From a virus: 41,058 nucleotides of DNA. The notes beneath the pieces are model-generated. The model saw nothing but the letters and a program-made list of their open reading frames with translations. It made no database searches and was not told the DNA's origin. Within the stretch, counting starts at the first letter, position 1. Each line of letters starts with the position of its first letter. The position numbers and the translations under genes are program-made. This document shows positions 12,376 through 40,964 of the stretch, piece by piece. The DNA lies in the IMG/VR virus record IMGVR_UViG_3300006752_000060, positions 1 through 41,058 of that record. One strand, written 5' to 3'.

Positions 12376-13184
12376 TTGTTTTCTTTGAGCCAGTTTATTA
12401 AAGTCATTACCTCATCTTTAAGATACGGTAAATCATACATAACTACATCCTCTACTACAGGTTCACCATTTACATGCTCATTAATTGGGTATCCATTTGT
12501 ATCAGTACCTAATTGTTTAAACTTTACATGTTGAATAGTTAACTTTCCTACCTTTAGTTTAGGGTTGTGCTTTTTAATAATATACGCATAAATACTGAGT
12601 TGTAAATTATAGTGTTTTAAATTACAATCGTCAAGGTGTTTAACAGGAGCAAACATCTTAGATGTTATACCTTCCCAGTTTGTAAATCCTTTCTCGCGTA
12701 TTTCTTTGTTAGTCTTATAGTCATTAATGTTTATATGCCCATTCACCACTTCAACCAAATCTGCTTGACCACATAATCCCACAGACTTTAAATATACCAT
12801 GTGCTCAGGGTAGACACCTTCATCAAGTTTCTGACTTGGTGCTATCTTAATACCATCATCATTAATAATTGGTTTGATGATAGGTATATCAACACCCTCA
12901 CGTTGAATTGTTTCAAGACCAAGTACATCTGACTCACGTTGGTTATGATACCAGTTTCCTAGTTTAATAGCCCTTTGAGTTTCATTATCCCAAGCTTGCA
13001 TGATTTCTTCTGGAGTCATGCCATACCACTTAGATCTTTTGTTCTTAGCAGACTTCTTAGCCTGACCTTCCCTATCAAACTTAGGTTTAAAGTTGCTAAT
13101 AAATGATGTTACACTAGTCCAGTTTATACCCTCATCCTCTATGCTTTGATATATATGCCCATCTTCTTTGAATGTAATAGCCAT
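12372..13184 (-). CDS. PD-(D/E)XK (Cas4/RecB-like) nuclease
   Basis: 270 residues. The core motifs are an early GNWYHNQRES (His motif, about residue 97), GLCGQADLVEV (the Asp), ININDYKTN (the D-x-K pair, about 153-156) and LQLSIYAYII (the Q-x3-Y helix motif). Such enzymes are metal-dependent DNA exonucleases or endonucleases. No iron-sulphur Cys set is seen. Being in the late operon near the terminase, it may trim or process DNA for packaging; this is inference. A second PD-(D/E)XK protein is encoded at 36927. Confidence 0.75.
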   Translation of the reverse strand: MAITFKEDGHIYQSIEDEGINWTSVTSFISNFKPKFDREGQAKKSAKNKRSKWYGMTPEEIMQAWDNETQRAIKLGNWYHNQRESDVLGLETIQREGVDIPIIKPIINDDGIKIAPSQKLDEGVYPEHMVYLKSVGLCGQADLVEVVNGHININDYKTNKEIREKGFTNWEGITSKMFAPVKHLDDCNLKHYNLQLSIYAYIIKKHNPKLKVGKLTIQHVKFKQLGTDTNGYPINEHVNGEPVVEDVVMYDLPYLKDEVMTLINWLKENK

Positions 13185-21590: not shown

Positions 21591-21772
21591 TGATGACTGA
21601 AGTAACATTAGATGGAAAGAAAGTATCTCTAAATACATATGAGTTAGAGTACGAAGTTTTAAAAGACTATACATTCAGATGGTTGGATCATAAGGATAAA
21701 CAGAAAGCAGTGCAAGAAACTGCTGATAGCTTTGGTCTACATGAAAGGATGGTAAAGCACATATGTTTATGA
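21587..21772 (+). CDS. Small hypothetical protein
   Basis: 61 residues: EVTLDGKKVSLNTYELEYEV, then FRWLDHKDKQKAVQETADSF and a final GLHERMVKHICL. The second half looks like a short helix-turn-helix (KQKAVQETADSFGLHERMVKHI), so it may bind DNA. It overlaps both neighbours (4 bp upstream, 10 bp downstream), which supports translation. No function assigned. Confidence 0.55.
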   Translation: MMMTEVTLDGKKVSLNTYELEYEVLKDYTFRWLDHKDKQKAVQETADSFGLHERMVKHICL

Positions 21773-22185
21773 AAAAGTTTATACTATTTATATTATCAAC
21801 GATCTGCTTAATAGGTTGTTCTCAAAGCTATACTGTAGGTAGGGTTATAGATGGTGATACATTTGTTATCATGTACAGAGGACAGCAAACTAAAGTTAGA
21901 TTGATAGGTGTAGATACACCCGAAGCATATAATTATAGAAACGTTAGAAAAGAATCAGGTGGTGAACAAGCATCTGCATATACAAGATCCTTAATAGAGG
22001 GTAAGCAAATTACCTTAGAGTTTGATCATGTTATGTATGACAAGTATGGTAGGCTACTAGCCTATGTGTATCTATCAGATGGTAGAATGCTTAATGCTCT
22101 TCTTGTAGAGAAAGGCTATGCTGAGCCCGCTAGATATGAACCTAATGTTAGATATGCTGATCATTTTGAATCACTAAATAATTAA
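21763..22185 (+). CDS. Lipoprotein staphylococcal-nuclease-like (SNase) protein
   Basis: 140 residues; the ATG at 21769 (third residue) is an alternative start. A lipoprotein signal, FILFILSTICLIGC, places the Cys at residue 19. The SNase domain follows: GRVIDGDTFVI, VRLIGVDTPEA, GEQASAYTRSLIEGK, YDKYGRLLAYVYL and LLVEKGYAEPARY. The active-site Asp (IDGD), Arg and Asp-x-x-Glu (VRLIGVDTPE) and the second Arg (YGRLLAYV) are all present, so a calcium-dependent nuclease is expected. Anchored in the envelope, it could degrade incoming or released DNA; this role is inferred. Confidence 0.8.
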   Translation: MFMKKFILFILSTICLIGCSQSYTVGRVIDGDTFVIMYRGQQTKVRLIGVDTPEAYNYRNVRKESGGEQASAYTRSLIEGKQITLEFDHVMYDKYGRLLAYVYLSDGRMLNALLVEKGYAEPARYEPNVRYADHFESLNN

Positions 22186-22187
22186 TT

Positions 22188-22874
22188 ATGAAGGTTTTAG
22201 AAAAAGTATTTGTAACTATGTTAGGTGCAACAATGGTATTGGTATTAGTTAATGCCATGATTACTAGCTATAACTTAGCAACAAAACAACCGGTAATTAT
22301 AGAAGTACCTACCATTCAGATTGATACTGTAAGAGATACTATTGAGGTACCTTTTATAGATACAATGTATACTAAAGATACCAGGTACCTGCACTATAAT
22401 GCTGATACAACTATTGATAGTGCACTTATAATAGGGGGTGAATATCACCCTCCTGTTATGGTTGGTAGAAGCACTAGTGGATATGGATGGCGTTGGGGTA
22501 GAATGCATGAAGGTATAGACATTGCTTATAACAATAAGGATACAAGCTATTCAACCTTTGCTGGTGTAGTAAGGTATGCTAAAGCAGGTTACAACGGTGG
22601 CTATGGTAAGCTAGTTATTGTTAGACACTTTAATGGGTTAGAGACTTACTATGCTCATCACTGGAATCTTCTTGTAGAAGAAGGGGATACTATAGCAGCA
22701 GGTACACCCTTAGGTATCATTGGTTCAACCGGTAGATCTACTGGTCCTCACTTACACTTTGAGGTAAGATTCTTAGGTGAGTCTATGGATCCAGATGATT
22801 TTTTTGATGCTATGTCAGATACTTCTGACTTTGTTATAAGAAAGAAGCATAGCTATTATGAAGTAATATACTAA
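22188..22874 (+). CDS. Membrane-anchored M23 peptidase
   Basis: 228 residues. Residues 8-30 are a transmembrane anchor (VTMLGATMVLVLVNAMI). A stalk of about 60 residues with Asp/Thr repeats leads to a LytM/M23 domain: SGYGWRWGRMHEGIDIAY (H-x3-D zinc motif), GYGKLVIVRHFNGLETYYAH, then GSTGRSTGPHLHFEVR (HLH zinc and catalytic motif). All metal ligands are present. It would cut peptide cross-links in peptidoglycan. It lies 2 bp after the SNase lipoprotein and one base before the thioesterase, so the group is one transcription unit. Confidence 0.82.
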   Translation: MKVLEKVFVTMLGATMVLVLVNAMITSYNLATKQPVIIEVPTIQIDTVRDTIEVPFIDTMYTKDTRYLHYNADTTIDSALIIGGEYHPPVMVGRSTSGYGWRWGRMHEGIDIAYNNKDTSYSTFAGVVRYAKAGYNGGYGKLVIVRHFNGLETYYAHHWNLLVEEGDTIAAGTPLGIIGSTGRSTGPHLHFEVRFLGESMDPDDFFDAMSDTSDFVIRKKHSYYEVIY

Positions 22875-23287
22875 TGAATTTAATTACAACCCATCCGATT
22901 AAAAAATCAGATCTAGGGTTTCATGCAAATTTATTTGGTGGCAAGTTGCTTGCGTGGATGGATGCCGCAGGAGCAGCTTTTGCTACTGAATGTTGTAGTA
23001 CACCTAGAATGCTGACTATAAAGATAGATGAATGTGTATTTATACGTCCTGCTAAAGAAGGTCAACTAATTAAGATATATGGTAAGGTAGCAAAGATTGG
23101 TAACACATCTATTACTCTTTACTTAGAAGCAAGATCACATAATGTATATAGTGGTAATCAAAAGGTTATTCTATCTACAAAGATTAAGTTTGTAAGGGTA
23201 GATGAGCAAGGTGATCCCACTCCTATAGCAGAAACAATTAAAAAGAAATATGGAACAGAAAACATTCAAAGTCAAGAAGACAATTAA
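22874..23287 (+). CDS. Hotdog-fold acyl-CoA thioesterase (YciA-like)
   Basis: 137 residues. The family motif HANLFGGKLLAWMDAAGAAFA (residues 17-37, catalytic Asp likely D30) is followed by LTIKIDECVFIRPAKEGQLIKIYGKVAKIGNTSITLYLEA, the standard core of YciA/acyl-CoA hydrolase proteins. These enzymes split acyl-CoA to free fatty acid and CoA. It is full length compared with the family. As a metabolic gene in a phage it is unusual. Placement after envelope-acting genes hints at a link with lipid or membrane change; that is inference. Confidence 0.78.
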   Translation: MNLITTHPIKKSDLGFHANLFGGKLLAWMDAAGAAFATECCSTPRMLTIKIDECVFIRPAKEGQLIKIYGKVAKIGNTSITLYLEARSHNVYSGNQKVILSTKIKFVRVDEQGDPTPIAETIKKKYGTENIQSQEDN

Positions 23288-25550: not shown

Positions 25551-26240
25551 ATGGCGAATATAGATATAAATAAAATAAGAGAAAAGTTTTTAGTAAAGTT
25601 ATTTCCATCAGGTTGGGATAGGATACTTGAACCATACATAAATGGGAATGAGTTTAAAGGAGCTGTTAATCAGTTAATTGAGCGTAGAGAACAGGGTCAT
25701 AAGTTTGAACCTGAGTTTAAGAATATCTTCAGAGCATTTGAGGTTTGTCCTTATGATGATCTTAAGGTTATTCTTATAGGACAAGATCCTTATCCACAAG
25801 AGGGTGCAGCAGATGGTATATCATTTAGCTGCAGCAGAAAGGATAAGTATGAGAAGTCTTTACAGTATATCTTCAAGGACCTATATGGTAAGTATGAAGG
25901 TAAAGATAAAGATCTAGCACGTTGGTCAGCTCAAGGTGTTCTGATGCTTAACACAGCTCTTACTGTACAGGTAGGTAAGATTGGTTCTCATTATGATATA
26001 TGGGATCCTTTTACAGATTATCTGCTTACAGTATTGAATGCTAATAAAGATGATAGGGTAGCAATACTCTTGGGTAAGAAAGCTGAGAAGTGGGAAGACC
26101 ATCTAAGCAATCAGCACATATTAAAATGTTCACATCCAGCTTCTGCTGCTTATAGTGGTGGTACTTGGCGTAGTGGAAATATATTTAAACATGCAAATCA
26201 TTTATTGATTACGCAGAAAGAAAAGAAGATAGAATGGTAG
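25551..26240 (+). CDS. ung: Uracil-DNA glycosylase, family 1
   Basis: 229 residues, the usual length. Removes uracil from DNA to start base excision repair. Visible motifs are IGQDPYPQEGAADGISFS with the water-activating Asp at D79; GVLMLNTALTVQVGKIGSH; and the minor-groove loop HPASAAYSGG (H195), a variant of the standard HPSPLS. It ends in TAG, 7 bp inside the next gene. It would protect the AT-rich phage genome, or keep uracil out during replication by PolB. Confidence 0.92.
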   Translation: MANIDINKIREKFLVKLFPSGWDRILEPYINGNEFKGAVNQLIERREQGHKFEPEFKNIFRAFEVCPYDDLKVILIGQDPYPQEGAADGISFSCSRKDKYEKSLQYIFKDLYGKYEGKDKDLARWSAQGVLMLNTALTVQVGKIGSHYDIWDPFTDYLLTVLNANKDDRVAILLGKKAEKWEDHLSNQHILKCSHPASAAYSGGTWRSGNIFKHANHLLITQKEKKIEW

Positions 26241-28442: not shown

Positions 28443-29254
28443 CAAATGCATTTAGTAAGAAGATTAAAATAAAAAATGATAGGAAAGGTTTATTAGTATT
28501 ATTCAATAAGAAGACTGATGAGGATGATAAGTTTATAAAAGTTCAAGATGGCCTTGGTGTAAACCTATGGGTTAAAAAGTCTTGGATATATAAACACCAT
28601 CTACGTAGAGATCAGTATGCTGTTATACTAGACCTGACAGCAGAAGAACAATTCAATGCTCATTATCAAAAAGAAACAAAGAAGTTCTTTGATGTAAGAG
28701 CAGAGAGTAGTGGTAATTCAGTAAGTATAAATAAACTAGAACGTGGTAAAATAAATGGTAAGAATATGACACCTGAAGAAAGAAAATATAAAGTAAGAGA
28801 GTTACGGATTGAGCACAAAGGTTATTTTGATAGTCTTGATGATAACTTTCTATATATACCTAAGATGGCATACAGACCTAAGGGTAAAGATGATATGCAT
28901 GTATCCTTTTTTCCAAGTGAATTGGAGAAGGGTAAAGATATCTACACTGAGTTTGTAAGTTATGAGTATGACTCAGAAGATCCAAAGAGAACTTTGTATC
29001 TGTTAGAGTATGATCAGGATTGGAAAGACATCTATGAGATAAATGAAAGCAGTTCGGGATATAAGAGACATCTTGTACCTGTATCTAAGCTAAAAATTAT
29101 CAATGATGTTACCTCTCGTAACAAAGAAATCATTACCTTTGATACTCCTCTAGAGAATCCTGATGATAGTCAAAAGGATTTGTTTAAAGCATTGGGTACA
29201 ATAGCTAAACAACTAGATAGGATAGCAACAATTTTAGATAAAAAATTAAACTAA
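28439..29254 (+). CDS. Conserved replication-block protein of unknown function
   Basis: 271 residues. Basic N terminus (FSKKIKIKNDRKGLLVLFNK), a middle with ERGKINGKNMTPEERKYKVR, a strand-rich region (ISFFPSELEKGKD is a close reading of HVSFFPSELEKGKD), and a C-terminal amphipathic helix DSQKDLFKALGTIAKQLDRI that may mediate oligomerisation. No catalytic motif. It overlaps the helicase stop by 4 bp and the RecA-like gene by one base, so it works in the same context. Not recognised. Confidence 0.55.
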   Translation: MTNAFSKKIKIKNDRKGLLVLFNKKTDEDDKFIKVQDGLGVNLWVKKSWIYKHHLRRDQYAVILDLTAEEQFNAHYQKETKKFFDVRAESSGNSVSINKLERGKINGKNMTPEERKYKVRELRIEHKGYFDSLDDNFLYIPKMAYRPKGKDDMHVSFFPSELEKGKDIYTEFVSYEYDSEDPKRTLYLLEYDQDWKDIYEINESSSGYKRHLVPVSKLKIINDVTSRNKEIITFDTPLENPDDSQKDLFKALGTIAKQLDRIATILDKKLN

Positions 29255-29937
29255 TGGCACAAAGTGTATTAATTATTGCAGACTCTGGCACTGGCAAGTC
29301 CACTGCTATCAGAAATCTCAACCCTGAAGAAACCTTCATTATAAATATTGCTAATAAACCTCTACCGTTTAAAGGTTGGAAGTCTAAGTACACCTTGGTA
29401 TCTAAGGATAACCCAAAGGGTAACATGACTAATGCCTCTAGCAGTACTGGTATATTAAAAGCAATAAATTATGTGAATGAAAAGATGCCACATATCAAGA
29501 ACTTAGTTATTGATGACTGGCAGTATATGTCTAGCTTTGAATATTTTGATAGAGCATTAGAGAAAGGTTATGATAAGTTTACTCAGATTGCTGCAAATCT
29601 TGCACAGGTTGCTAAGACCCCAAAAGATTTGAGAGATGACTTATATGTTTTCTTTATGACTCATTCAGAAGATTCAACAGATGTTAATGGTCACCGTAGG
29701 GTGAAAGCCAAGACTATTGGCAAAATGATAGACAATACTCTCACACTTGAGGGATTGTTCTCTATAGTACTATTTGGAAAGGTAGTAAAGAAAGATGATG
29801 GTACTTTGGATTATGGTTTTGAAACTGTGAACAATGGAGAGAATACTTGTAAGTCTCCAATGGGAATGTTTGAAGAGCCTTTTATTCCAAATGACCTTCA
29901 GTTAGTTAAGGACAAAATTTATAATTACGAAAATTAA
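29254..29937 (+). CDS. RecA-like ATPase (Sak4 / AAA_24 type)
   Basis: 227 residues. The Walker A ADSGTGKSTAIRNL appears at residues 9-22, Walker B is NLVIDDWQYM, and a sensor strand YVFFMTHSED follows. These match the small phage RecA-core ATPases called Sak4, which act with an SSB to pair DNA strands. A putative SSB (29942) is encoded directly after it, as in known Sak4-SSB pairs. Probable role: recombination-dependent replication. Confidence 0.75.
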   Translation: MAQSVLIIADSGTGKSTAIRNLNPEETFIINIANKPLPFKGWKSKYTLVSKDNPKGNMTNASSSTGILKAINYVNEKMPHIKNLVIDDWQYMSSFEYFDRALEKGYDKFTQIAANLAQVAKTPKDLRDDLYVFFMTHSEDSTDVNGHRRVKAKTIGKMIDNTLTLEGLFSIVLFGKVVKKDDGTLDYGFETVNNGENTCKSPMGMFEEPFIPNDLQLVKDKIYNYEN

Positions 29938-29941
29938 AACT

Positions 29942-30613
29942 ATGTTAAGTACAAAAGATATGTCAGCAGGAGGTGGAAGAATCAGTCCCCTTATGAACCC
30001 AGGTAACGTTACATTTAAAGTTAATGATGTAACTCTACAACAGACACCTTATGATAAGGATGCCTATAACATCTATCTACATATAGAAAGCAAGCCAATT
30101 GGAGGTGACTTCCAGGGTTTTCTAAGAGATAGAAATAATGAGGCTCTTGGACGTTATGAGGGTCAGGTAGGAAGAGTTAGAGCTAGTCAGTATCCTTTTA
30201 AAGATACTACGTTACCTAGTGGAAGAGATATTTCCCGTGATCAGGAGATTCTTAAGACAATGATCTTTCTTGCCTCAGCATTTGGTGTAAGAGAGGAACT
30301 TGATATGATTGAGGCAGATACTATTGAAGACTTTGTTTCTTCAGCTGGTCCTATCATATGCACGGGTTCATTTGTTAATGCGTGTTTAGGCTCTAGGGAA
30401 TGGGAGAACAATGAAGGTTATATCAACAATGATTTGTATCTACCAAGAGTTTCTAAGGATGGTGTTCCAATAGAGCGGGAAGGTGTAGAGAACTCTAGAC
30501 TATTAACATTTGATCGTGAGACACATGTCCGGCCAGTTGTTAAGAAAGAGTCTACAGAAACCTCTAAGTTTGAACCAACTAAGAGTTCAGTTGGAGATGA
30601 CTTTGATCTCTAA
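29942..30613 (+). CDS. Putative single-stranded DNA-binding protein
   Basis: 223 residues. A strand-rich body (VTFKVNDVTLQQTPYDKDAY, NIYLHIESKPIGGDFQGFLR, GPIICTGSFVNACLG) is followed by a low-complexity tail ending in the acidic hexapeptide GDDFDL, the kind of C-terminal tip by which SSBs recruit partners. It is encoded between the RecA-like ATPase and primase and has its own terminator. It would coat ssDNA at the fork. The SSB call rests on tail and context. Confidence 0.65.
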   Translation: MLSTKDMSAGGGRISPLMNPGNVTFKVNDVTLQQTPYDKDAYNIYLHIESKPIGGDFQGFLRDRNNEALGRYEGQVGRVRASQYPFKDTTLPSGRDISRDQEILKTMIFLASAFGVREELDMIEADTIEDFVSSAGPIICTGSFVNACLGSREWENNEGYINNDLYLPRVSKDGVPIEREGVENSRLLTFDRETHVRPVVKKESTETSKFEPTKSSVGDDFDL

Positions 30614-30620
30614 TAATTAG

Positions 30621-30649
30621 AAAGGGGGAGTGAAAGCTCCCCTTTTTTT
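30621..30649 (+). terminator. Rho-independent terminator
   Basis: AAAGGGGGAG (30621-30630) pairs with CTCCCCTTTT (30637-30646, including a G-U pair) across TGAAAG, and continues as a run of seven T ending at 30649. Follows the SSB-like gene. Confidence 0.9.
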
Positions 30650-30662
30650 ATAACTTAGTTAG

Positions 30663-31640
30663 ATGTTCAGTACTAGAAATCTAGTTGACACTCACAATGA
30701 TGTACCCAGCTATTGGGTATTTCAATACTATCTTAATCTACCTGAAGTACTAACCGGTCAAGCTGTAAAAATTAAATCTATATTCAATGCTAATGAGCGC
30801 ACACCAAGCATGTGCATCTATGTAGATAGCTCAAGAAATGAATATATGTTTAAAGACTTTTCTACTGGGACCTATGGCAGCAAGATTGATCTTGTTAAGA
30901 CTATATTCTCTGTAGATTATAGTCTAGCTGTAAGTAAAATACTAGATGACTACAACAGTTATGTAAAGAAGAATGGTTCTGTAGACATTACTATTAACCC
31001 CGCAGCTAAGTGGGAGATAGATAATATTAAAACAAGAACCTGGAACACTGATGATGCAGATTATTGGTTACAGTTTAGAATTGGTACTAGCTTACTTAAT
31101 AAGTATAATGTCAAGCCCCTTGAGTATTATAATATGCTTAGGATTGATAATGGTAAGGTAGATAAGATCAAGATAGAAAGCGCATGTATGTATGGTTATT
31201 ATACTAAAGATGATAGTCTTTATAAAGTATATAAACCAAAGAGTAAAAAGCGCAAGTTCTTTAGAATAGCATCTCACCTGCAAGGGTTAGATCAATTGGA
31301 ATATAATCAACCGTATCTTGTGATATGTTCATCTTTGAAAGATGCAATGTGTCTAAAAGGATTTGGATATAATATTGAAGTAGTAGCACCTGAGAGTGAG
31401 ACTAGTGTAATTAAACCAATATATATTGAAAGCTTTAAGAAAAGATACAAGAAGATTATCACCTTGTTTGACTCTGATGACGCAGGTCATCAAGCAATAG
31501 AAAGGTACAAAGAACTATATGATGTTAATGGTTGCGCGTTAGATATTGCTAAGGATATATCTGATGCTGTAAAAGACCATGGATTTGAGAAGGTGCATAC
31601 AGAGCTCAAACCTTTACTCAAAAAAACTATATATGAATAA
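30663..31640 (+). CDS. DNA primase (DnaG/TOPRIM type)
   Basis: 325 residues. The N-terminal part (KSIFNANERTPSMCIYVDSS, YMFKDFSTGTYGSKIDLVKT) matches the DnaG CHC2 fold without its zinc Cys residues. A TOPRIM domain follows: YLVICSSLKDAMCLKGFGYN, where the usual motif-I Glu is replaced, and KIITLFDSDDAG with the DxD metal site. The same motif-I form (SLKD) is known from other phage primases. It would lay primers for lagging-strand synthesis. It has its own leader after the terminator. Confidence 0.8.
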   Translation: MFSTRNLVDTHNDVPSYWVFQYYLNLPEVLTGQAVKIKSIFNANERTPSMCIYVDSSRNEYMFKDFSTGTYGSKIDLVKTIFSVDYSLAVSKILDDYNSYVKKNGSVDITINPAAKWEIDNIKTRTWNTDDADYWLQFRIGTSLLNKYNVKPLEYYNMLRIDNGKVDKIKIESACMYGYYTKDDSLYKVYKPKSKKRKFFRIASHLQGLDQLEYNQPYLVICSSLKDAMCLKGFGYNIEVVAPESETSVIKPIYIESFKKRYKKIITLFDSDDAGHQAIERYKELYDVNGCALDIAKDISDAVKDHGFEKVHTELKPLLKKTIYE

Positions 31641-32025
31641 ATGGTTTATACCGGGCAATGTCCCGTCAAGTAAGAATGGTAGGAGATGGACAGGTAAATA
31701 TTTTATCTCCAGCAAAACCGTAATGAACTATAGAAAAGCTACAAAGTCTTTATATGAAGATATGAAAGATAGCTTTGTAGAAGAGTTCTCTAAATATAAA
31801 TACCCTGTAAGGGTAGGGTTCACCTTTCATAGAGGTAGTAGACACAAGTTTGATTATGTTAATCCTTTACAAACTGTACAGGATGATATGGTTAAACACG
31901 AGTGGATAGAAGATGATAATGCTGATATCTTACTCCCTGTGTTCTATCAATATGATTATAACAAGGAAGAACCTGGTGTTACAATTGAAATTTTAGAAGA
32001 TAATATTTTGAAAGATGAAGTTTAA
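31633..32025 (+). CDS. rusA: RusA-like Holliday junction resolvase
   Basis: 130 residues from the ATG at 31633; an upstream start at 31579 lies inside the primase gene. The sequence starts MNKWFIPGNVPSSKNGRRWT. The active-site region KFDYVNPLQTVQDDMVKHEW, then IEDDNADILLPV, gives the Asp cluster (D...N...D and DD) that binds magnesium in RusA. It would cut four-way junctions before packaging or during recombination. Overlaps the stop of primase by 8 bp. Confidence 0.82.
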   Translation: MNKWFIPGNVPSSKNGRRWTGKYFISSKTVMNYRKATKSLYEDMKDSFVEEFSKYKYPVRVGFTFHRGSRHKFDYVNPLQTVQDDMVKHEWIEDDNADILLPVFYQYDYNKEEPGVTIEILEDNILKDEV

Positions 32026-32269
32026 ATTTACGTTTGAAACAACAGATGATTATAATGATGCTACAAAGTCTTCTCCTGAGTTTTTGTTTAATACTGTAAG
32101 ATTTAAGGTAATAAGAAAGACTGGTGTAATAGACTATCCAGTATATTCTATGGAAGAGTATGTATCAGAAATGTTTAGACTACATAATAATAATGATGTA
32201 GTAGAGTTTCATGCATATCCTACTGAACACTTTTATGATCAATGCAAGTATTATGAATCAATGATATAG
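32015..32269 (+). CDS. Small hypothetical protein
   Basis: 84 residues: MKFKFTFETTDDYNDATKSS, FNTVRFKVIRKTGVIDYPVY, then an acidic helix SMEEYVSEMFRLHNNNDVVE and AYPTEHFYDQCKYYESMI. Alpha/beta, with no motif. Overlaps the resolvase by 11 bp and is 3 bp before the VWA-peptidase gene, so it may be part of that unit. Not recognised. Confidence 0.6.
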   Translation: MKFKFTFETTDDYNDATKSSPEFLFNTVRFKVIRKTGVIDYPVYSMEEYVSEMFRLHNNNDVVEFHAYPTEHFYDQCKYYESMI

Positions 32270-32272
32270 CTT

Positions 32273-33436
32273 ATGAAAGATATAGCAAATCAAGTTTCTA
32301 GATCGTCTAAGAAACTTTTATTTAAAGAGCCTTTTTACGGGCTCTTTTTAGTTGGACTAAATAAGGAATACTCTGAGAGAGTTCCTACTGCAGGTGTTAG
32401 TAAAAATGATATAGGTGTAAAGCTAGCTATCAATCCAAAGTTCTTTATGGATCTTAATGAAGATCATAGAATGGGATTGATTAAGCATGAGCTTTTACAT
32501 ATATCTTTTGGTCACCTGCTTATACGTGATAAGTATCCAGATAAGAAGCTATTTAATATTGCTGCGGATCTAGAGATCAATCAATATATAGATAGAAGTT
32601 GCCTGCCTGATGGTGGTATAACTATGGATACCTTTCCAGAGTTAAAGCTTGATAGAAGAGCAGGTACTGATTATTATTATAAGGAGTTGGGTAAAGCTCA
32701 ACAGGATGGTACATCTCCTTCTCTAGAGAGTATACTAGACCAAATGGATGGTAGCTCTCAATATGATCACCCTACATGGGATGAGATGAATGATTTATCT
32801 GAATCTGATAAGAAGCTTATACAGAAGCAGATAGAACATCAGTTGAAGGAGACTGCAGAAGCAGTAGAGAAGAAGCAAGGTTACGTACCAAGTGAGCTTG
32901 CAGATTTAATACGTAGACTGACAAATCCTGAACCTGCTAAGTTTGATTGGAAAGGATATCTAAGAAAGTTCTTTGGTAACTCTACTAAGAGTTATACTAA
33001 GAAGCTTAGAAGAAAGTTCAATAAAAGATATGCGGGTAGTCCAGGTCTAAAGATTAAATTTAAAAACAACATTCTTGTTGGTGTAGATACTTCTGCATCA
33101 GTAAATAATGATGAGTTAAAAGAGTTCATGAATGAGCTCGTGCATATGCATAAGACAGGTCATTGTATTACTGTAGCACAGTGTGATACACAGCTAACAA
33201 GTGTTGAGGAATTTAATCCTAAGAAAGATTGGGATATCAAAGGTCGTGGAGGTACTGACTTCCAACCTGTTATAGATCATTTTAATCAGAATAAGAGCAA
33301 GTATACTGCTCTAGTATATTTAACTGATGGTGAAGCTCATTCTCCTACAGACTGTCCTAAGAATACTCTATGGGTTCTTAGTAGCAGATCAGATATGAAT
33401 GAAGCGTTACCAGGTAAAGTAATTAAACTAAACTAA
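32273..33436 (+). CDS. VWA-domain putative metallopeptidase (DUF2201-like)
   Basis: 387 residues. Residues 60-135 hold a zinc-peptidase-like helix GLIKHELLHISFGH (HELLH, 72-76) followed by NIAADLEINQYI. A charged linker with SSQYDHPTWDEMNDLSESDK follows. The C-terminal part is a von Willebrand A domain: NILVGVDTSASVNNDELKEF (MIDAS DxSxS), GRGGTDFQPVIDH and ALVYLTDGEA. Such proteins pair with MoxR ATPases, and a MoxR gene follows 2 bp later. Together they probably remodel a protein target, as in MoxR/VWA chaperone systems; the target is unknown. Confidence 0.82.
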   Translation: MKDIANQVSRSSKKLLFKEPFYGLFLVGLNKEYSERVPTAGVSKNDIGVKLAINPKFFMDLNEDHRMGLIKHELLHISFGHLLIRDKYPDKKLFNIAADLEINQYIDRSCLPDGGITMDTFPELKLDRRAGTDYYYKELGKAQQDGTSPSLESILDQMDGSSQYDHPTWDEMNDLSESDKKLIQKQIEHQLKETAEAVEKKQGYVPSELADLIRRLTNPEPAKFDWKGYLRKFFGNSTKSYTKKLRRKFNKRYAGSPGLKIKFKNNILVGVDTSASVNNDELKEFMNELVHMHKTGHCITVAQCDTQLTSVEEFNPKKDWDIKGRGGTDFQPVIDHFNQNKSKYTALVYLTDGEAHSPTDCPKNTLWVLSSRSDMNEALPGKVIKLN

Positions 33437-33438
33437 TC

Positions 33439-34698
33439 ATGGCACAAGTTAATTTAAATATTGATGAACTAAAGGGTTTTGTAAACCACATTATAGAAAA
33501 CAATCGTTTCCTACAGAAGGAAAGTAAACCACCAGTTGCAATTGAGGTTGTGGGTGAATCAGGTATTGGTAAGACTTCTACTATTGTAGAGTTGGCAAAG
33601 GAGAATAATCTAGACTTTGTAAAGTTGAATCTAGCACAGATTGAGGAGCTGGGTGACTTAGTAGGTTTTCCTGTACGTCAGTTTCAGATGTACAAGGAAG
33701 TAAAAGTTAAACCATCTAATGATGGACTTAACTATACTGCTGCACAAAGAGCTGCTGCATCTAAGGATGTTGCAAACATGACTACCAAAAAGGTAGGTCA
33801 ATGGGTAGATGAACTCGCAGTCAATGAGTATCTAAAGAATGGTTTCAAGATGACCGGTAAGAATAGAATGTCTTACTGTGCACCTGAGTGGATCTCTGAT
33901 AAGAAGCAAGGTGGTATCCTTCTACTAGATGATTGGAACCGTGCTGATGTAAGATTCATTCAAGCTGTTATGGAGTTGATTGATAGACAGACTTATATCT
34001 CTTGGTCTTTACCAAAGGACTGGCACATCATTCTAACTGCTAATCCAGACAATGGAGACTACATGGTTAATAGTATTGACTCAGCTCAGAAGACTCGTTA
34101 TATTACTGCAAACCTAAAGTTTGATGTAGATGTATGGGCAAGATGGGCAGAGGAAGCTAACATAGATACTAGATGTATTAACTTCTTATTACTTAACCCA
34201 GAGTTGGTAACACAAGAGACTAATGCAAGATCTATCACTACGTTCTTTAATTCTATCTCTAGCTTTGATAGCTTTGAAGACAACCTAGCTATGATCCAAA
34301 TGATTGGTGAGGGCTCTGTTGGTAGTGAGTTTGCTTCTATGTTTACTATGTTTATTAATAATAGACTTGATAAGATTGTAACTCCAAAAGAGTTATTGAC
34401 TGATCAAGATGAGTCTAAGATTATTAATAAGCTAAAGTCTTCTGTTGGTACAGGTGATTCTTATCGTGCAGATATTGCATCTATACTAGCTACAAGGCTA
34501 GCAAACTATTCTATAGTTTATTCTAAAGAGAACTCAGTAACTGCTGATATAGTCACTAGACTAGAGAAGCTTTGCACTGGGGATTATTTCACAAATGATC
34601 TGAAGTATCTTGTTGTAAGAACAATATACAATGGTGCTCGTCAGAAGTTTAATAAGCTTATGATGAAGCCTCAGATTGTTAAAATGACAATGGCGTAA
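33439..34698 (+). CDS. MoxR-family AAA+ ATPase
   Basis: 419 residues. Walker A GESGIGKTSTIVELA (about 38-52), the DLVGFP segment typical of MoxR, Walker B GGILLLDDWNRAD, and sensor I WHIILTANPDNGDY are all present. The MoxR insert and C-terminal lid appear complete. It is transcribed with the VWA peptidase before it and the two BRCT-like paralogues after it. It would provide ATP-driven force to the VWA partner. The start is 2 bp after the VWA stop. Confidence 0.88.
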   Translation: MAQVNLNIDELKGFVNHIIENNRFLQKESKPPVAIEVVGESGIGKTSTIVELAKENNLDFVKLNLAQIEELGDLVGFPVRQFQMYKEVKVKPSNDGLNYTAAQRAAASKDVANMTTKKVGQWVDELAVNEYLKNGFKMTGKNRMSYCAPEWISDKKQGGILLLDDWNRADVRFIQAVMELIDRQTYISWSLPKDWHIILTANPDNGDYMVNSIDSAQKTRYITANLKFDVDVWARWAEEANIDTRCINFLLLNPELVTQETNARSITTFFNSISSFDSFEDNLAMIQMIGEGSVGSEFASMFTMFINNRLDKIVTPKELLTDQDESKIINKLKSSVGTGDSYRADIASILATRLANYSIVYSKENSVTADIVTRLEKLCTGDYFTNDLKYLVVRTIYNGARQKFNKLMMKPQIVKMTMA

Positions 34699-35783
34699 TG
34701 AGTAAAGTATTTCAAGAAATTGATAATACTATTGTTACAAATCTTCTTGGGAGTGAGGTACGGGAAATAACCGTGCCTTACTCTGAGGAGAATTTTAATA
34801 ATAGCATATATCTTATTAAGACATCGCAGTATTATGATTTTGTAGAGACTTTTAAATCTGATACTGATCCTTCTGCTTTAAAAGGTAAGAAGGTTTATAT
34901 TGTACCAGGCATAGAGTACACTAATGATAGAATGCGTGGTATACTTGATGCTCTTGATATTAAAATAACAGGTAGTCTTAAAAGAGCTGATGCAGTTGTA
35001 GTTGGTAAGACTCTCGATATTACCACAGATAGATGGACACCATTCTCTAATAGAAATATTATGGGTTATTTAAAAGGATATCATGTAGGCTATGGTATTT
35101 CTCGTATGGGTGATGATAGCTTTGTTGATATGGTAAATGATCATGATAAACCAGTCTTGTTTCATCCAAATCTAGGTTATAGACCTAGCGCATATGCAAA
35201 CAATGCTCATAATGCAGATAGTATTTATGAGAAGTATATCACCAGTGGTGGTCTTAAGATTATTGATGCAATTAATAATGGGCTTGGTGTAGTTAATGCT
35301 GAGGATATTATTAATAACCCAGTAACTAAGCTAACTCTTGATGAGGAGCTAGTAGAAACTATATCTTCACAGGTATGGGGGAGTGATGAGGATGTTGCTA
35401 TGGCAGGAACAATCTTACCTAACATTGATTATGAAACTAACATTCATTATCTATGGAAGCTAGCTGATAAAATTAGTGGTAGAATCTATAGATACAATAG
35501 GAGCAAAGATGTAAAGACATGGATTAATAATAGTAATTTTCTTAGGCTCTCACGAATGAATTCATTTGAAATGATTGAGTATCTACAGAAAAAAGATAAG
35601 CTTGATCATGCATCATTTACTTATCTAGAACCTATTTATAGAAAGGGAATCTTGGTTCAATCATCTGGTGACTACAGTGGTATTCCACCTAAAGAACATC
35701 CTATATACAAGTTTAAGGTTGAGATTAAACCAGAGTTTTTAAAATATATGAAAAATGAAGAAAGCGTTAAAAGTACTGATTGA
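34698..35783 (+). CDS. Unknown protein, BRCT-like segment (paralogue A)
   Basis: 361 residues. Residues about 58-105 (LKGKKVYIVPGIEYTNDRMR, GILDALDIKITGSLKRADAV) have a beta-alpha-beta-beta plan like a BRCT domain. The same pattern occurs in the following gene (LKGKTLYRYPKINLSRDKIS, SIKQDYGISVTRDYHKADYL). Later, LTLDEELVETISSQVWGSDE matches PTITEEMFDNLEEMIRTRNE in the neighbour, so the two are paralogues. Starts on the MoxR stop. No enzyme motif is apparent; possible target or adaptor of the MoxR/VWA pair. Confidence 0.65.
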   Translation: MSKVFQEIDNTIVTNLLGSEVREITVPYSEENFNNSIYLIKTSQYYDFVETFKSDTDPSALKGKKVYIVPGIEYTNDRMRGILDALDIKITGSLKRADAVVVGKTLDITTDRWTPFSNRNIMGYLKGYHVGYGISRMGDDSFVDMVNDHDKPVLFHPNLGYRPSAYANNAHNADSIYEKYITSGGLKIIDAINNGLGVVNAEDIINNPVTKLTLDEELVETISSQVWGSDEDVAMAGTILPNIDYETNIHYLWKLADKISGRIYRYNRSKDVKTWINNSNFLRLSRMNSFEMIEYLQKKDKLDHASFTYLEPIYRKGILVQSSGDYSGIPPKEHPIYKFKVEIKPEFLKYMKNEESVKSTD

Positions 35784-36870
35784 TAGTCAGAAAGATGGTG
35801 GTCATGTTGTATCTATTACAGATGGTTATATTTTTGATTATAATATGGATAGAAACTCTATGGAAAGTTTTAGCCGTGAAACGGGTATAATCTTTAATAA
35901 ACTAGATAGTAATTCTCTAAAGGGTAAAACCTTATATAGATATCCAAAGATTAATCTATCAAGAGATAAAATAAGTAGCATTAAACAAGATTATGGAATC
36001 TCTGTTACAAGAGATTACCATAAAGCTGACTATCTTGTTGTGTCTCAGAAGTATATTAACTCTAAGGTAAATCAGCTTGGTTATCGTCCTAGAGTCTATA
36101 CGGTTGAAAGTGTGCTAGCTGATATGCATAAGCAGACTATAGATTTATCTGATGTAAGAGCTGCTATAAATGATCATGAGCTTGTATTGTTTGAGTATAA
36201 GGGTTATGGTTGGCATAGAAATTATGAGATAACAGTTACTCCTATGTTAGAACAAAGGTACCATTCATCATTCATGAATAAAAATGCATATACATTACTT
36301 AGCTGTGGTAATCTTGTACTAGATGAAAACATTAATAATATAATTAGTAGGGAGTCTCCTACTATTACAGAAGAGATGTTTGATAATCTAGAGGAGATGA
36401 TTCGTACAAGAAATGAGGATGATGTTAGTATGGCATTGAATGTTATGGCTAATAGTAATTATACTGAGTCTATAGATAAGATTGCTTTATTACTTGTGAC
36501 AAATCATAGTGCTTTGTGTAGGTGTAAAGCTTGGAACTCTGTTGGTGTTAAAGCAATGAGATCTACTTTCTCTGCATTTAATATGCAACTGGATGATTAT
36601 GCACATGGTTATAATAAATTCTTTGATGTCTTATTATCTAAGGGTGCAATGACTAGCTTTGCTGTTAGGAAAGTTAGACACTTAATCTTCCAAAGATTTC
36701 TCAATAGATTCTTTGATGATGATCCAGATACAGGCAAGTATACAATGCCGTTTCATATTAAGGAAAGTGATTTAATGTTAGCTCCTAAGTATGCAAAGGA
36801 GTTCACAGAGAAGGAAATGGTTGAGTATGGTAATGCCATGCTTGATGCAAGAATGCAATTTCCATTTTAA
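35755..36870 (+). CDS. Unknown protein, BRCT-like segment (paralogue B)
   Basis: 371 residues, overlapping paralogue A by 29 bp. It has a short strand start (ALKVLIDSQKDGGHVVSITD) and the BRCT-like segment at about 55-100. A central region contains LGYRPRVYTVESVL, comparable to LGYRPSAYANNAHN in paralogue A. The C-terminal half is helical (NEDDVSMALNVMANSNYTES, FFDVLLSKGAMTSFAVRKVR). Closely follows the VWA/MoxR genes. Not recognised as any known family. Confidence 0.65.
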   Translation: MKKALKVLIDSQKDGGHVVSITDGYIFDYNMDRNSMESFSRETGIIFNKLDSNSLKGKTLYRYPKINLSRDKISSIKQDYGISVTRDYHKADYLVVSQKYINSKVNQLGYRPRVYTVESVLADMHKQTIDLSDVRAAINDHELVLFEYKGYGWHRNYEITVTPMLEQRYHSSFMNKNAYTLLSCGNLVLDENINNIISRESPTITEEMFDNLEEMIRTRNEDDVSMALNVMANSNYTESIDKIALLLVTNHSALCRCKAWNSVGVKAMRSTFSAFNMQLDDYAHGYNKFFDVLLSKGAMTSFAVRKVRHLIFQRFLNRFFDDDPDTGKYTMPFHIKESDLMLAPKYAKEFTEKEMVEYGNAMLDARMQFPF

Positions 36871-36926: not shown

Positions 36927-37913
36927 ATGCAAAGAAATAATCAGAAAGAAAAAGAGTTCTATTCTAAACCGTTTAAGTTTAGTTACTCATCGTTAAACAA
37001 ATTATTATTCTCCCCAAGTCTTTTTTATAAAGACTATATACTAAAGGACAGAGAAGAGAGATTAGATAAGCACCTTGTAGAGGGTAAGCTTATACACTGT
37101 CTCTTATTTGAACCACAAAATTTAGAGGAAAAGTTCAGCGTTATGCCGGGCAAGACACCTACAGATAGCATTAAGAAGGTTTTGTACTATTTAAAAGACA
37201 AAATAAGAGGTGACCTGCTAAATGTAAATAGCAATGTTTATATTCTAGATGCACTTAAGATTGCAAACCTTTATCAATCTTTTAAAGAAGATGAGAAAAG
37301 GCTGGCTAAGATCCAGACAGAAGACAATGAAGCTTATTGGCAGTTCATTAAGAACACTAAGGCAGATGTTGTTGATATGGATACCCTACAGAGATGTAAG
37401 GATAGAGTTGAGTTGATTAAGTCTAACAAAGATGTGATGTCTTTATTTACTAAAGAAGAAACAGACTTTGAGTTAGACTCTATTACTACACATGCAGAAG
37501 CATATCTTGAATGCGGGTTACATGATAGAAACTTTGGACTTAAAGGTTTTGTAGATTATTACTCTATAGATGAGGAAGCTAAACAAGTTACTATCTGTGA
37601 TCTCAAGACCACGGGTAAAACGATTGCTGACTTTGCTGAGACTGTAGACTTCTATAATTATTGGTTACAAGCAGCAATGTATTGTAAACTTGTTTATGAA
37701 AACCTGTCTGAAGACCGTGACAGTTATAAAATTACTTTTAAGTTTGTAGTTATTGATAAGTATGATCAAGTATATGTATTTGATGTATCTGATAAGACTA
37801 TAACAAACTGGATGGAAAGCCTATTTGAAACTCTCAACATTGCACAATATCATTACTCTAACAAAAACTATTCACTCCCATATCAGTTTCTGGAAGATAA
37901 AGTAGTATTATAA
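36927..37913 (+). CDS. PD-(D/E)XK exonuclease (RecE/Cas4-like)
   Basis: 328 residues. FKFSYSSLNKLLFSPSLFYK is the family opening segment; VEGKLIHCLLFEP gives the His motif; the core is GLKGFVDYYSI (Asp), VTICDLKTTGKTIADF (D-x-K) and LQAAMYCKLVYE (Q-x3-Y). Matches RecE/PDDEXK_1-type phage exonucleases that make 3' overhangs for annealing. With the Sak4-like ATPase and SSB it would complete a recombination set. The second such nuclease is at 12372. Confidence 0.82.
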   Translation: MQRNNQKEKEFYSKPFKFSYSSLNKLLFSPSLFYKDYILKDREERLDKHLVEGKLIHCLLFEPQNLEEKFSVMPGKTPTDSIKKVLYYLKDKIRGDLLNVNSNVYILDALKIANLYQSFKEDEKRLAKIQTEDNEAYWQFIKNTKADVVDMDTLQRCKDRVELIKSNKDVMSLFTKEETDFELDSITTHAEAYLECGLHDRNFGLKGFVDYYSIDEEAKQVTICDLKTTGKTIADFAETVDFYNYWLQAAMYCKLVYENLSEDRDSYKITFKFVVIDKYDQVYVFDVSDKTITNWMESLFETLNIAQYHYSNKNYSLPYQFLEDKVVL

Positions 37914-38467
37914 TGCGTGGGGTATACACAAAGTATTTTCAGAAGAGCAAAGTATTTATCTATCCTTTACTGGGAATAAAGAAAGGTATAGACTTTGTTC
38001 CTGAGAATACTTATATGTGTTGGGATACTTTATATAATACAGGAGACTATAAGTTAATCTGTTCTTATATAGTAGAGGACTCACCGGAGTTCAGAAAGTT
38101 TGAGGAGAGGGTTATATTCTCTAACAAGCATTATCATGACTTTCATGAGATTGATAAGGAGCATATGTTGTATGCTTTTGATCTATCCTCTTATAAGAAT
38201 GATATAGATTTGTTTTTGCAGGGTAAGTACTCTAAACTTAGTGATGACACCATGGAAATTATTCTTAATTTTTTTGGTGATGATGGTCAGATAGCTCAGT
38301 GTGTATTAGGATTTCTTTTTCCAGAAGAGGTCCATGATAAATATGCAGAGTATCTTGATGTTGATATTGATGTAATTAAAAAGGCGCATGAGGTGTGTAC
38401 ACCACCTGATATGAGTTTGGAATGTTGTGAAGAAAATATTCCCTTCCCTTTAAATTTAGTCAAATAG
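37913..38467 (+). CDS. Conserved hypothetical protein
   Basis: 184 residues. An aromatic N-terminal half (YFQKSKVFIYPLLGIKKGID, YMCWDTLYNTGDYKLICSYI) is followed by an acidic helical C-terminal half (KLSDDTMEIILNFFGDDGQI, YAEYLDVDIDVIKKAHEVCT). Begins on the exonuclease stop (one-base overlap). I recall similar proteins in related phages without any known function. Five or so scattered Cys do not form a clear metal site. Confidence 0.6.
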   Translation: MRGVYTKYFQKSKVFIYPLLGIKKGIDFVPENTYMCWDTLYNTGDYKLICSYIVEDSPEFRKFEERVIFSNKHYHDFHEIDKEHMLYAFDLSSYKNDIDLFLQGKYSKLSDDTMEIILNFFGDDGQIAQCVLGFLFPEEVHDKYAEYLDVDIDVIKKAHEVCTPPDMSLECCEENIPFPLNLVK

Positions 38468-38497
38468 TATTATATTTACGTGTACAAATTATTTAGT

Positions 38498-38908
38498 ATG
38501 ACAATTGGTAAAAATATGTTAATAGTTTCCTCATCATTTAGAGGAGCAAAATCTTTTAATTTAGTTCCAGCTACTCCGGAGTCTCCGTATGTTGAAGCTA
38601 TGTATGATCCTTCTTCAGGAATTCTTGCTGTTATTAGCAAGGTAATGAAGCAATCTTATCACATGATCCCAAAGCTTGATGACAATGGTGATCCATTAAG
38701 AGTAAAGGGTACACCAAGAGAAGGAGGCAAGACTGTCCGTGAGGAAAGAAGACTTGTTGATACTTTCTCTGAGTTTTATCTTACTGACAAGCAAGAGATA
38801 AGTGATTTTATCAATATATTTGCTGTGAATGCTGAGTCCTTTGACTTCTCACAGTACATGGTAGATGTAGAAGCTACCGAAAAGAGTCCTATAATTACTA
38901 TGGGCTAA
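38498..38908 (+). CDS. Conserved hypothetical protein
   Basis: 136 residues from the ATG at 38498; an in-frame GTG at 38480 is possible. Starts MTIGKNMLIVSSSFRGAKSF, then a strand-rich body (VEAMYDPSSGILAVISKVMK, QSYHMIPKLDDNGDPLRVKG) and a Glu/Phe-rich end (FYLTDKQEISDFINIFAVNA). The gene has its own leader after an upstream gap and a strong terminator behind it, so it is probably well expressed. No motif known. Confidence 0.6.
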   Translation: MTIGKNMLIVSSSFRGAKSFNLVPATPESPYVEAMYDPSSGILAVISKVMKQSYHMIPKLDDNGDPLRVKGTPREGGKTVREERRLVDTFSEFYLTDKQEISDFINIFAVNAESFDFSQYMVDVEATEKSPIITMG

Positions 38909-38930
38909 TATGTATATATAATGAGTTTAG

Positions 38931-38960
38931 AAAGAGGGGCATTAGCTCCTCTTTTTTTTT
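38931..38960 (+). terminator. Rho-independent terminator
   Basis: AAAGAGGGGC (38931-38940) pairs with GCTCCTCTTT (38945-38954, one G-U pair) around ATTA, continuing into a T-run to 38960. Ends the transcript before the polymerase gene. Confidence 0.9.
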
Positions 38961-38966
38961 AAATAT

Positions 38967-40964
38967 ATGCGTATGAATCATTGGATAATGGATTATGAGA
39001 CGCTCAACAATTGCTTCATAGCAGTGTTTGAGCACTATAAAACATCTGAGAGAAAAGTATTTACCGTACATAAATCTCAGAATGACTTCAAGGCATTCCT
39101 ATTATTTCTTGGTGATAACATTAAGAATAAGGAATGGCACATATCCTATAATGGTTTAGCGTTTGATGCTCAGGTTACTCAGTATATTCTTGATAACTGT
39201 TCTTCTTGGGATATAGAAGATGCAGATCAAATAGCAAGCATGATATATCAGTATGCTACCTCTTGCATACAGAAAAGTAATGCGGGTCAGTTCTTGGATT
39301 ATCCTCATTGGAAAATTAAGATTGGGCAGATTGATATATTTAAAATGCATCATTGGGATAACCCGGCCAAGAGATCTAGTCTAAAGTGGATTCAGTATAG
39401 TATGGATTGGGATGACATGATTGATATGCCTCTCCATCACTCTACACAGATTGAAACTCCAGAGCAGATTGAGATGATAACAACGTACTGTATAAATGAT
39501 GTTAGGTCAACTAAGGAAATATTTAATAGATCAAAGTCACAGATAGCACTAAGAAAGGAGCTAACTAAAACCTATGGTATTAATTTGTTTAGTGCCTCAG
39601 AGCCCAGGATAAGCAAGGAGTTATTTGCTTATTATCTTTCAGATAAACTTGGCAAGAGTAAGTCTCAAATTAAAAAGCTTAGGACCTTTAGAAGAGTGGT
39701 TAAGTTCAAAGATATTATACTTCCATATGTTAAGTTTAATGTACCTGAATTTAAGTTACTTCATGAAAGGTTTAAGGCTGCTGAGATAATGACTGACAAT
39801 CTTAGGGGTGGGCTTAAGTATAAAATGGAGTACAAAGATGTAGTCACTCACTTTGGTTTAGGTGGTGTGCATGGTGCTAGAAGAAGTGGAATATTTGAGA
39901 GTGATGATGAGTATGTTATTATGTCTTCAGATGTTACAAGCTTCTATCCTAACTTAGCCATCAAGAATAGATTTTCTCCAGGTCATTTTCCAGAGGATGA
40001 ATTCTGTGATCAGTATGAGTGGTTCTTCAAAGAAAGAAAGAAGATACCTAAGAGTAATCCTATGAACTATGTCTATAAGATTATTCTTAACTCAACCTTC
40101 GGGCTTAGTAATGATAAGAATAGTTTTTTCTATGACCCTGAGCTGTGTATGAAAATCACAATTAATGGTCAGCTTACTCTAATGATGCTCTATGAAATGA
40201 TAATGGAACGTATACCAAATTCTACTGCGCTTATGCAGAATACAGATGGTATAGAGACTATTATCCCTCGTAAGTATATTGATGAGTACATGGATATCTG
40301 CAAAGAGTGGGAAGAGATTACTAATCTTAACCTTGAACATGATCAATATGAGAAGCTTATAATAGGTGATGTAAATAATTATATCGGTGTCCTTGGATAT
40401 AAAGAAACTGATATGACTACATGGCGGGATATTAAGAAGAAAAACCCACACTATCTATTTAAGATAAAGGATGGTAAGTTCTTGCATGCACCTGCTAAGA
40501 TGAAAGGTAGATTTGACTTTCATAATTTACAGCTCCATAAGAATAAGTCTAAGCTTATTATTAAGAAGGCTATATATCATTACTTTGTGCATAATATATT
40601 ACCCAGAGACTTCCTTAAGAACAATAGAAATATTTTAGACTATTGTATAGGTGGTAAGTCTAAGGGTGATTGGATGCAGATGGCTCGGTCTTTGGAGAAG
40701 GGTCTTTATAAAGAAGACAAACTGCAGAAGATCAATAGATATTATATCTCTAAGAGTGGCATCAAGATAGTCAAGGTTAATCAAAAGGATAATCGTGAGG
40801 TTCAGCTTGAAGCCGGTAGGTGGATGCAAACCATCTTTAATAAGATTGATATCAAACCCAGGTGGGAGCAGTATGATGTTGATGAAGCTTACTATATTAA
40901 TGCTATAGAGCAAGAGATAAATAATATTCTTGCTAAGCCAATCAATCAATTAAAATTATTTTAA
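38967..40964 (+). CDS. Family-B DNA polymerase with proofreading exonuclease
   Basis: 665 residues; the ATG at 38973 is an alternative start. The exonuclease motifs are MDYET (D9/E11), SYNGLAFDAQ (Exo II) and YCINDVRST (Exo III). The polymerase motifs are SSDVTSFYPNL (motif A), YKIILNSTFGLSND (motif B) and LMQNTDGIE (motif C, with N-T-D in place of the usual D-T-D). It is compact for the family but appears complete. It copies the phage genome. The Asn in motif C is a variation worth checking, since Asp-Thr-Asp normally holds both metals, although the second Asp is present. A terminator precedes it. Confidence 0.9.
   Translation: MRMNHWIMDYETLNNCFIAVFEHYKTSERKVFTVHKSQNDFKAFLLFLGDNIKNKEWHISYNGLAFDAQVTQYILDNCSSWDIEDADQIASMIYQYATSCIQKSNAGQFLDYPHWKIKIGQIDIFKMHHWDNPAKRSSLKWIQYSMDWDDMIDMPLHHSTQIETPEQIEMITTYCINDVRSTKEIFNRSKSQIALRKELTKTYGINLFSASEPRISKELFAYYLSDKLGKSKSQIKKLRTFRRVVKFKDIILPYVKFNVPEFKLLHERFKAAEIMTDNLRGGLKYKMEYKDVVTHFGLGGVHGARRSGIFESDDEYVIMSSDVTSFYPNLAIKNRFSPGHFPEDEFCDQYEWFFKERKKIPKSNPMNYVYKIILNSTFGLSNDKNSFFYDPELCMKITINGQLTLMMLYEMIMERIPNSTALMQNTDGIETIIPRKYIDEYMDICKEWEEITNLNLEHDQYEKLIIGDVNNYIGVLGYKETDMTTWRDIKKKNPHYLFKIKDGKFLHAPAKMKGRFDFHNLQLHKNKSKLIIKKAIYHYFVHNILPRDFLKNNRNILDYCIGGKSKGDWMQMARSLEKGLYKEDKLQKINRYYISKSGIKIVKVNQKDNREVQLEAGRWMQTIFNKIDIKPRWEQYDVDEAYYINAIEQEINNILAKPINQLKLF

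Follow-up and report, generated by a model that had tools for sequence, protein, structure and literature searches.

A four-gene cassette carried by a widespread group of uncultured crAss-like phages links a VWA-metallopeptidase and a MoxR-like AAA+ ATPase to two paralogous proteins, here named A and B, for which a BRCT-like fold is predicted. It is proposed, with a probability of about 0.42, that these genes encode a MoxR–VWA-peptidase machine to which two adaptors, facing target and DNA, are dedicated, and that B would meet a partner that keeps changing at the replication fork. In N4-like phages, MoxR/VWA-peptidase pairs belong to the core genes, and some jumbo phages also have them. The initial annotation held that a phage machine with a paired partner would be new; this applies to the paralogue pair and its behaviour, but not to the MoxR–VWA-peptidase pair itself, which had already been described in jumbo phages (PMC7824862). 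In a literature search that left most subscription journals outside, neither reports on crAss-like phages with MoxR, VWA or BRCT nor any description of an obligate BRCT paralogue pair, of its rate pattern or of the SSB-like tip discussed below were found. To our knowledge, phage BRCT proteins beyond NAD-dependent ligases have scarcely been described. A MoxR/VWA pair welded to two partner proteins is a natural handle on the question of which clients such pairs serve, and the A/B pair is present in hundreds of uncultured viral contigs. Additionally, the combination of a nearly frozen engine and fast-changing partners in one operon with an SSB-like tail leads to testable predictions on the site of action of the machine.

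Source phage and genomic setting

The window, that is, the whole stretch of DNA that was analysed (41,058 bases), corresponds to the IMG/VR virus record IMGVR_UViG_3300006752_000060. The matches of its terminase were crAss-like or other Bacteroidota phages, with E-values reaching 2e-37, the portal and terminase were assigned to phrog_6547 and phrog_6681, respectively, and the Crassvirales member Cellulophaga phage phi14:2 was among the matches of the DNA polymerase. Judged by its terminase and portal matches, the phage belongs to a crAss-like lineage, formal membership of Crassvirales not being claimed. The cassette is located between RusA and exonuclease, within the replication module, on the strand opposite to the portal, terminase and capsid genes (Table 1). 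The crAss-like phage phi14:2 displays the same upstream gene order, inserted genes aside; its backbone consists of Sak4, an unknown gene, primase, RusA and exonuclease, and the cassette is absent at the corresponding place. In fact, all four cassette genes were absent from the examined stretches of both phi14:2 and cr1_1, which share this crAss-like replication backbone.

Other genes of the window also deserve mention. The 223-aa protein encoded between Sak4 and primase, likely the phage SSB, ends in a tip (GDDFDL or SDFEL) that is almost invariant in relatives, and it had no match in Pfam or among phage records. Two exonuclease-like genes are present, one per genome side (12372-13184, phrog_298; 36927-37913, phrog_412), and genes for an SNase nuclease (21763-22185), a hot-dog thioesterase (22874-23287) and a uracil-DNA glycosylase (25551-26240) lie upstream of the replication block. 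An 84-aa ORF (32015-32269) immediately precedes the VWA gene, being found in only two near-identical contigs among 80 relatives.

Table 1. Features of the cassette and of the flanking replication blocks (positions in the window)
Feature	Position	Strand	Basis
Upstream replication block: Sak4-like annealing protein, putative SSB, primase, RusA resolvase	29254..32025	+	PHROG, relatives
Putative phage SSB, 223 aa, between Sak4 and primase	29942-30613	+	Acidic tip GDDFDL
VWA-metallopeptidase (zincin + VWA), N4 gp25-like	32273..33436	+	PF13203/PF09967, phrog_1314
HELLH zincin motif, residues 72-76 of VWA protein	32486..32500	+	Motif in relatives
MIDAS DxSxS motif of VWA domain	33086..33100	+	79/80 relatives
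MoxR-like AAA+ ATPase, with the highest conservation in the block	33439..34698	+	phrog_1297, E 1.5e-33
Walker A, GESGIGKT	33553..33576	+	79/79 relatives
Paralogue A (361 aa): predicted split BRCT + ARM-like helical domain	34698..35783	+	AlphaFold2 model
A, predicted BRCT fold part 1, residues about 58-112	34869..35033	+	AlphaFold2, structural alignment
A, predicted BRCT fold final part, beyond the insert, residues about 181-211	35238..35330	+	AlphaFold2, structural alignment
Paralogue B (371 aa): predicted split BRCT + ARM-like domain; fastest evolving of the block	35755..36870	+	AlphaFold2, dN/dS
B, predicted BRCT fold part 1, residues about 51-110	35905..36084	+	AlphaFold2, structural alignment, conservation
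B, predicted BRCT fold final part, residues about 169-201	36259..36357	+	AlphaFold2, structural alignment
SSB-Ct-like C terminus of B: MQFPF here, DDLPF in many relatives	36853..36867	+	C termini of relatives
Downstream replication block: PD-(D/E)XK exonuclease, two unknown genes, DNA polymerase	36927..40964	+	Pfam, PHROG

The VWA-peptidase and MoxR genes

As initially annotated, the four genes are co-directional and tightly packed, being separated by 2 bases at the first junction and overlapping by 1 and 29 bases at the second and third. The first product had been described as a VWA protein with HELLH, which agrees with its Pfam matches (PF13203 and PF09967, E 1.5e-18 and 3.1e-18; 67.8 and 66.5 bits against gathering scores of 23.2 and 26.4), with its assignment to phrog_1314 (E 3e-67) and with the conservation of both motifs, placing it among the DUF2201 VWA-metallopeptidases. 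Among 80 relatives, the residues H72, E73 and H76 of the zincin motif and D272, S274, S276, T328 and D352 of the MIDAS were conserved in at least 97%, with HEILH or HEVLH replacing HELLH in six. For this gene, whose product is a zincin+VWA protein, the label that phrog_1314 carries, 'HNH endonuclease', was rejected. The same label, attached to N4 gp25 and its relatives, has been propagated across many phage records (NC_055784, NC_008720 and others).

The identification of the second product as a MoxR ATPase was likewise upheld by Walker A, by Walker B (77 of 79 relatives), by sensor 1 and by the adjoining VWA gene, and at least 97% conservation was observed at 216 of its 419 positions. Regarding curated models, AAA_5 and AAA scored below the Pfam gathering score and phrog_1297 is labelled 'ATPase' only, while the nearest solved relative was Midasin (phmmer 1.2e-6, Walker A region only).

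The same two families (PF13203+PF09967; phrog_1314) are adjacent in N4 gp24 (AAA+ ATPase)/gp25 (vWFA) of Schitoviridae and in AR9 g028/g029, and the N4 genes occupy a non-structural location, as does the window cassette. However, the ATPase gene comes first in the N4 and AR9 pairs and the VWA gene in the window, A and B are missing from both, and their sequences are only about 20-34% identical to those of the window. NorQ/NorD, RavA/ViaA and Midasin follow the same logic of an AAA+ ring and a VWA MIDAS, whose residues are conserved in the window protein, but the VWA partners in those systems are not known to carry a zincin or to have a BRCT partner pair.

Kinship and predicted fold of the paralogues

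The earlier proposal that A and B arose by duplication was confirmed throughout the lineage, with similarity well above chance by three approaches: BLASTP aligned them with 22% identity over 218 aa (E 5e-6), their local score was 99 versus 38.6 +/- 5.5 in 300 shuffles, and the family profiles matched each other with 91-98% probability over 276-323 columns. By sequence comparison the duplication is ancient, because the A-B similarity within a locus equals that between loci. Gene conversion between A and B was ruled out, as similarity within the own locus was not above that across loci. No family was assigned to either protein from Pfam, PHROGs, NCBIfam, PADLOC or PDB sequences.

Single-chain AlphaFold2 models, built from 59 (A) and 65 (B) sequences, reached pLDDT 85.4 and pTM 0.78 for A and pLDDT 86.2 and pTM 0.80 for B. 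Nearly all of the best 50 VIA-align matches of A were BRCT domains (Z up to 7.0), the alignments spanning residues 59-210 of A and mostly comprising 72-76 residues, and Foldseek retrieved the PARP1 BRCT (probability 0.99, E 0.044). In the case of B, about half of the top matches were BRCT domains (residues 52-201, Z 6.2), the remaining ones being ARM-repeat and similar helical proteins that matched residues 202-279. A second structure library added viral BRCT proteins and NAD-dependent ligases to the matches. Z values of 5-7 alone are modest, and the weight of these predictions comes from their consistency across two paralogues and two libraries. Additionally, two uncharacterised viral proteins covered most of A in the structure search (A0A8S5TL70, E 5e-8; A0A6J5LXR8, E 7e-7).

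At the sequence level, BRCT was the Pfam family most often matched by A members, although weakly (8 of 59, best E 0.017, below the cut-off), and it was absent among the 25 families listed for B members. Thus, the resemblance to BRCT suggested by the initial annotation held for the predicted models of both proteins, neither of which gave an unrelated known fold, but not for their sequences, which remain below the Pfam BRCT cut-off; 'BRCT-like fold', as opposed to membership of Pfam BRCT, is largely the right description of these models. The predicted folds resemble the BRCT domains of DnlJ, XRCC1, PARP1, Rev1 and RFC1, mostly over 70-76 residues at about 2.4-3.5 A, from which they differ by an insert of about 60-70 residues ahead of the final strand and helix and by the fusion to an ARM-like domain. 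Inspection of the alignments by eye revealed no apparent conservation of the Ser/Thr and Gly that follow strand 1 and line the canonical phosphate pocket of BRCT domains. In B, R62, L68 and K72 of the first BRCT part are invariant and R70 and R86 near-invariant, and D190 of the final part is invariant.

Distribution and linkage

Searches of viral contigs returned 596 relatives of MoxR, 304 of A and 282 of B. The loci analysed, which include 157 distinct MoxR DNA sequences, were the best 80 per search from three query proteins (73-100% identical in the case of MoxR), the sets overlapping and the pattern search favouring near relatives. Within this sample, the MoxR gene was directly upstream (at most 666 bases) in 152 of 152 loci with A, B was directly downstream of A in every locus with enough sequence, with one copy of each, and A and MoxR were present in all 79 loci of the B-directed set. 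The coupling of the paralogues to the MoxR/VWA pair, as initially proposed, therefore extends to every locus analysed, none of which carried A/B without the pair, nor were such paralogues seen in distant phages. The whole cassette was also recovered in three matches from cellular genome records, all metagenome-assembled bins, which are probably phage contigs.

No A or B was returned when 50,697 phage records were searched at the DNA level and by tblastn, and none was detectable in N4, AR9, Moorella MTATph1, Vibrio SBP1 or S-TIM54, cultured phages that have the MoxR/VWA pair. A homology of A/B to the MoxR/VWA neighbours in Moorella MTATph1 and AR9 was unsupported by hhalign or hmmsearch. Four faecal scaffolds deposited as 'Bacteriophage sp.' (MT837937, MT837993, MT836813 and MT838754; L173-L176) carry a VWA-MoxR pair and no A/B; they were set aside as bacterial chromosome fragments according to their neighbours (truA, rnfC, sirtuin, ribosomal and SSB genes).

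Evolutionary rates along the operon

Conservation falls along the operon in the order MoxR > VWA > A > B, by both identity and dN/dS. Median protein identity, taken over 37 non-redundant loci, was 80.5% for MoxR, the highest of 12 genes, followed by Sak4 (78%), VWA (70%), polymerase (68%), exonuclease (57%), A (42%) and B (27%), the lowest of the 12. The median dN/dS of close pairs, many of which share members and are therefore not independent, was 0.06 for MoxR, 0.10 for VWA, 0.24 for A and 0.45 for B, the highest of the block, with individual pairs near 0.9. Within B, pN/pS was about 0.68 in the three parts that change most (N-terminal part, insert and second BRCT part) and 0.33-0.36 in the two that change least, the first BRCT and first helical parts. 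These rates argue against decay of A and B, the genes being intact throughout and under purifying selection, though far looser than that on their operon mates; gene-wide dN/dS is below 1, and their rapid change may reflect relaxed constraint. MoxR, B and VWA gave the top three of nine partial distance correlations with A (0.44, 0.37 and 0.33), a weak signal because neighbouring genes share history and shared inheritance could yield it.

The C-terminal tip of B

A [ILVF]PF ending, mostly DLPF, was observed in 23 of 65 non-redundant B proteins, about two thirds of B thus being devoid of it, versus none of the remaining 844 ORFs of these loci (Fisher 7e-29, kinship uncorrected). An acidic residue directly precedes the tip in 20 of these 23, whereas the B of the window ends in MQFPF, with acidic residues absent. 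The C terminus of E. coli SSB, MDFDDDIPF, recruits many repair proteins (PMC7913777), and in a subset of relatives B ends in a similar way, with acidic residues and then hydrophobic-Pro-Phe as the last three positions. Unlike bacterial SSB, B is not an OB-fold protein according to its predicted fold, and the phage encodes a separate SSB candidate. In a VWA+MoxR+primase tree, the tip occurred to either side of the midpoint root and required five changes versus 11.9 expected if shuffled, and DDLPF is retained on deep branches even though B drops to about 25% identity. On this phylogenetic pattern, the ancestor probably already had the tip, which would have disappeared once in a clade of 16 members and on a few other occasions. 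It was also noted that the C terminus of A is basic in most relatives (often KYLK) and that of B often acidic (DDLPF), as in L009, L010, L013 and others, which is a possible A-B contact.

Proposed machine and alternative explanations

MoxR-like ATPases are known to work together with VWA proteins. In the NorQD system, the ATPase remodels its VWA partner, and the MIDAS was suggested to accept an acidic ligand of the target (PMC13036017). As in NorQD or Midasin, the MoxR-like ATPase ring of the cassette would act through the VWA protein, whose MIDAS site would grip a partner that the zincin may clip. A and B would form a heteromeric adaptor pair, A being the inner and more conserved link to the MoxR/VWA engine and B the outer face, where the conserved basic cluster R62, R70, K72 and R86 of the BRCT could hold DNA or phosphate and the SSB-like acidic tip could dock on proteins that normally bind SSB tails. 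Such a machine would be sited at phage replication or recombination forks, stripping or cleaving bound protein, with the engine staying fixed while the grip on the target shifts. B and, to a lesser extent, A change far faster than the engine, so the target would likely be a varying host factor, candidates being a nuclease of DNA repair and a defence protein directed at DNA. Three observations favour this adaptor reading: the rates increase outward from the engine, the linkage has no exception in the loci analysed, and the replication block houses the cassette.

Among the alternatives, the one that survives best, while still unlikely, is that A and B are substrates or clients, the MoxR/VWA pair maturing, assembling or cutting an A-B complex that does the actual work, e.g., DNA-end or fork binding. 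Dedicated clients are known for MoxR/VWA pairs such as NorQD (PMC13036017), and both the total linkage and the pairing of a conserved engine with a variable client would fit; however, so variable a client as B would be unusual beside a nearly frozen engine, and the pairs of N4, AR9, Moorella MTATph1, SBP1 and S-TIM54, which lack A/B, must have other clients. A bolder form of the adaptor reading is considered rather improbable, namely that A and B are arms-race BRCT adaptors, one mimicking the host SSB tail and so drawing the machine to replication forks, where it would pull off or cleave proteins of host repair or defence as an AAA+ counter-defence or fork-clearing device without described precedent.

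DNA repair proteins are the typical bearers of BRCT domains, and A and B could instead be accessory proteins of replication or recombination, with BRCT DNA binding and an SSB-like tip, whose only tie to MoxR/VWA is a common operon. The neighbourhood of Sak4, putative SSB, primase, RusA, exonuclease and polymerase and the SSB-Ct-like tip of B are in line with this explanation, but it is held to be improbable in view of the constant company of MoxR/VWA in the loci analysed and of the examined stretches of phi14:2 and cr1_1, where the replication backbone occurs without any of the four genes. A virion-assembly chaperone has been proposed for the jumbo-phage pairs by analogy with archaeal virus tail assembly (PMC7824862), and in some N4-like roseophages genes close to the gp24/gp25 homologues encode virion proteins (PMC4193335). 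Such a role, in which the machine would process capsid or tail proteins with A/B as assembly factors, is very improbable here given the replication-block location on the strand opposite to the structural genes, the status of N4 gp24/25 as middle genes and the SSB-like tip of B.

Variable DNA adjoining the cassette

The interval between B and the exonuclease is a variable cargo spot adjoining the cassette. In some relatives it holds one to several extra genes (60-374 aa), the corresponding spans being 11641-13613 in L011, 11476-12490 in L013, 11531-13345 in L074, 11594-13217 in L078 and 11993-13063 in L086. No third A/B paralogue was found in the loci with extra DNA ahead of the exonuclease, and a 277-aa ORF recurs in the extra DNA of L013, L016, L056, L060, L062 and L074.
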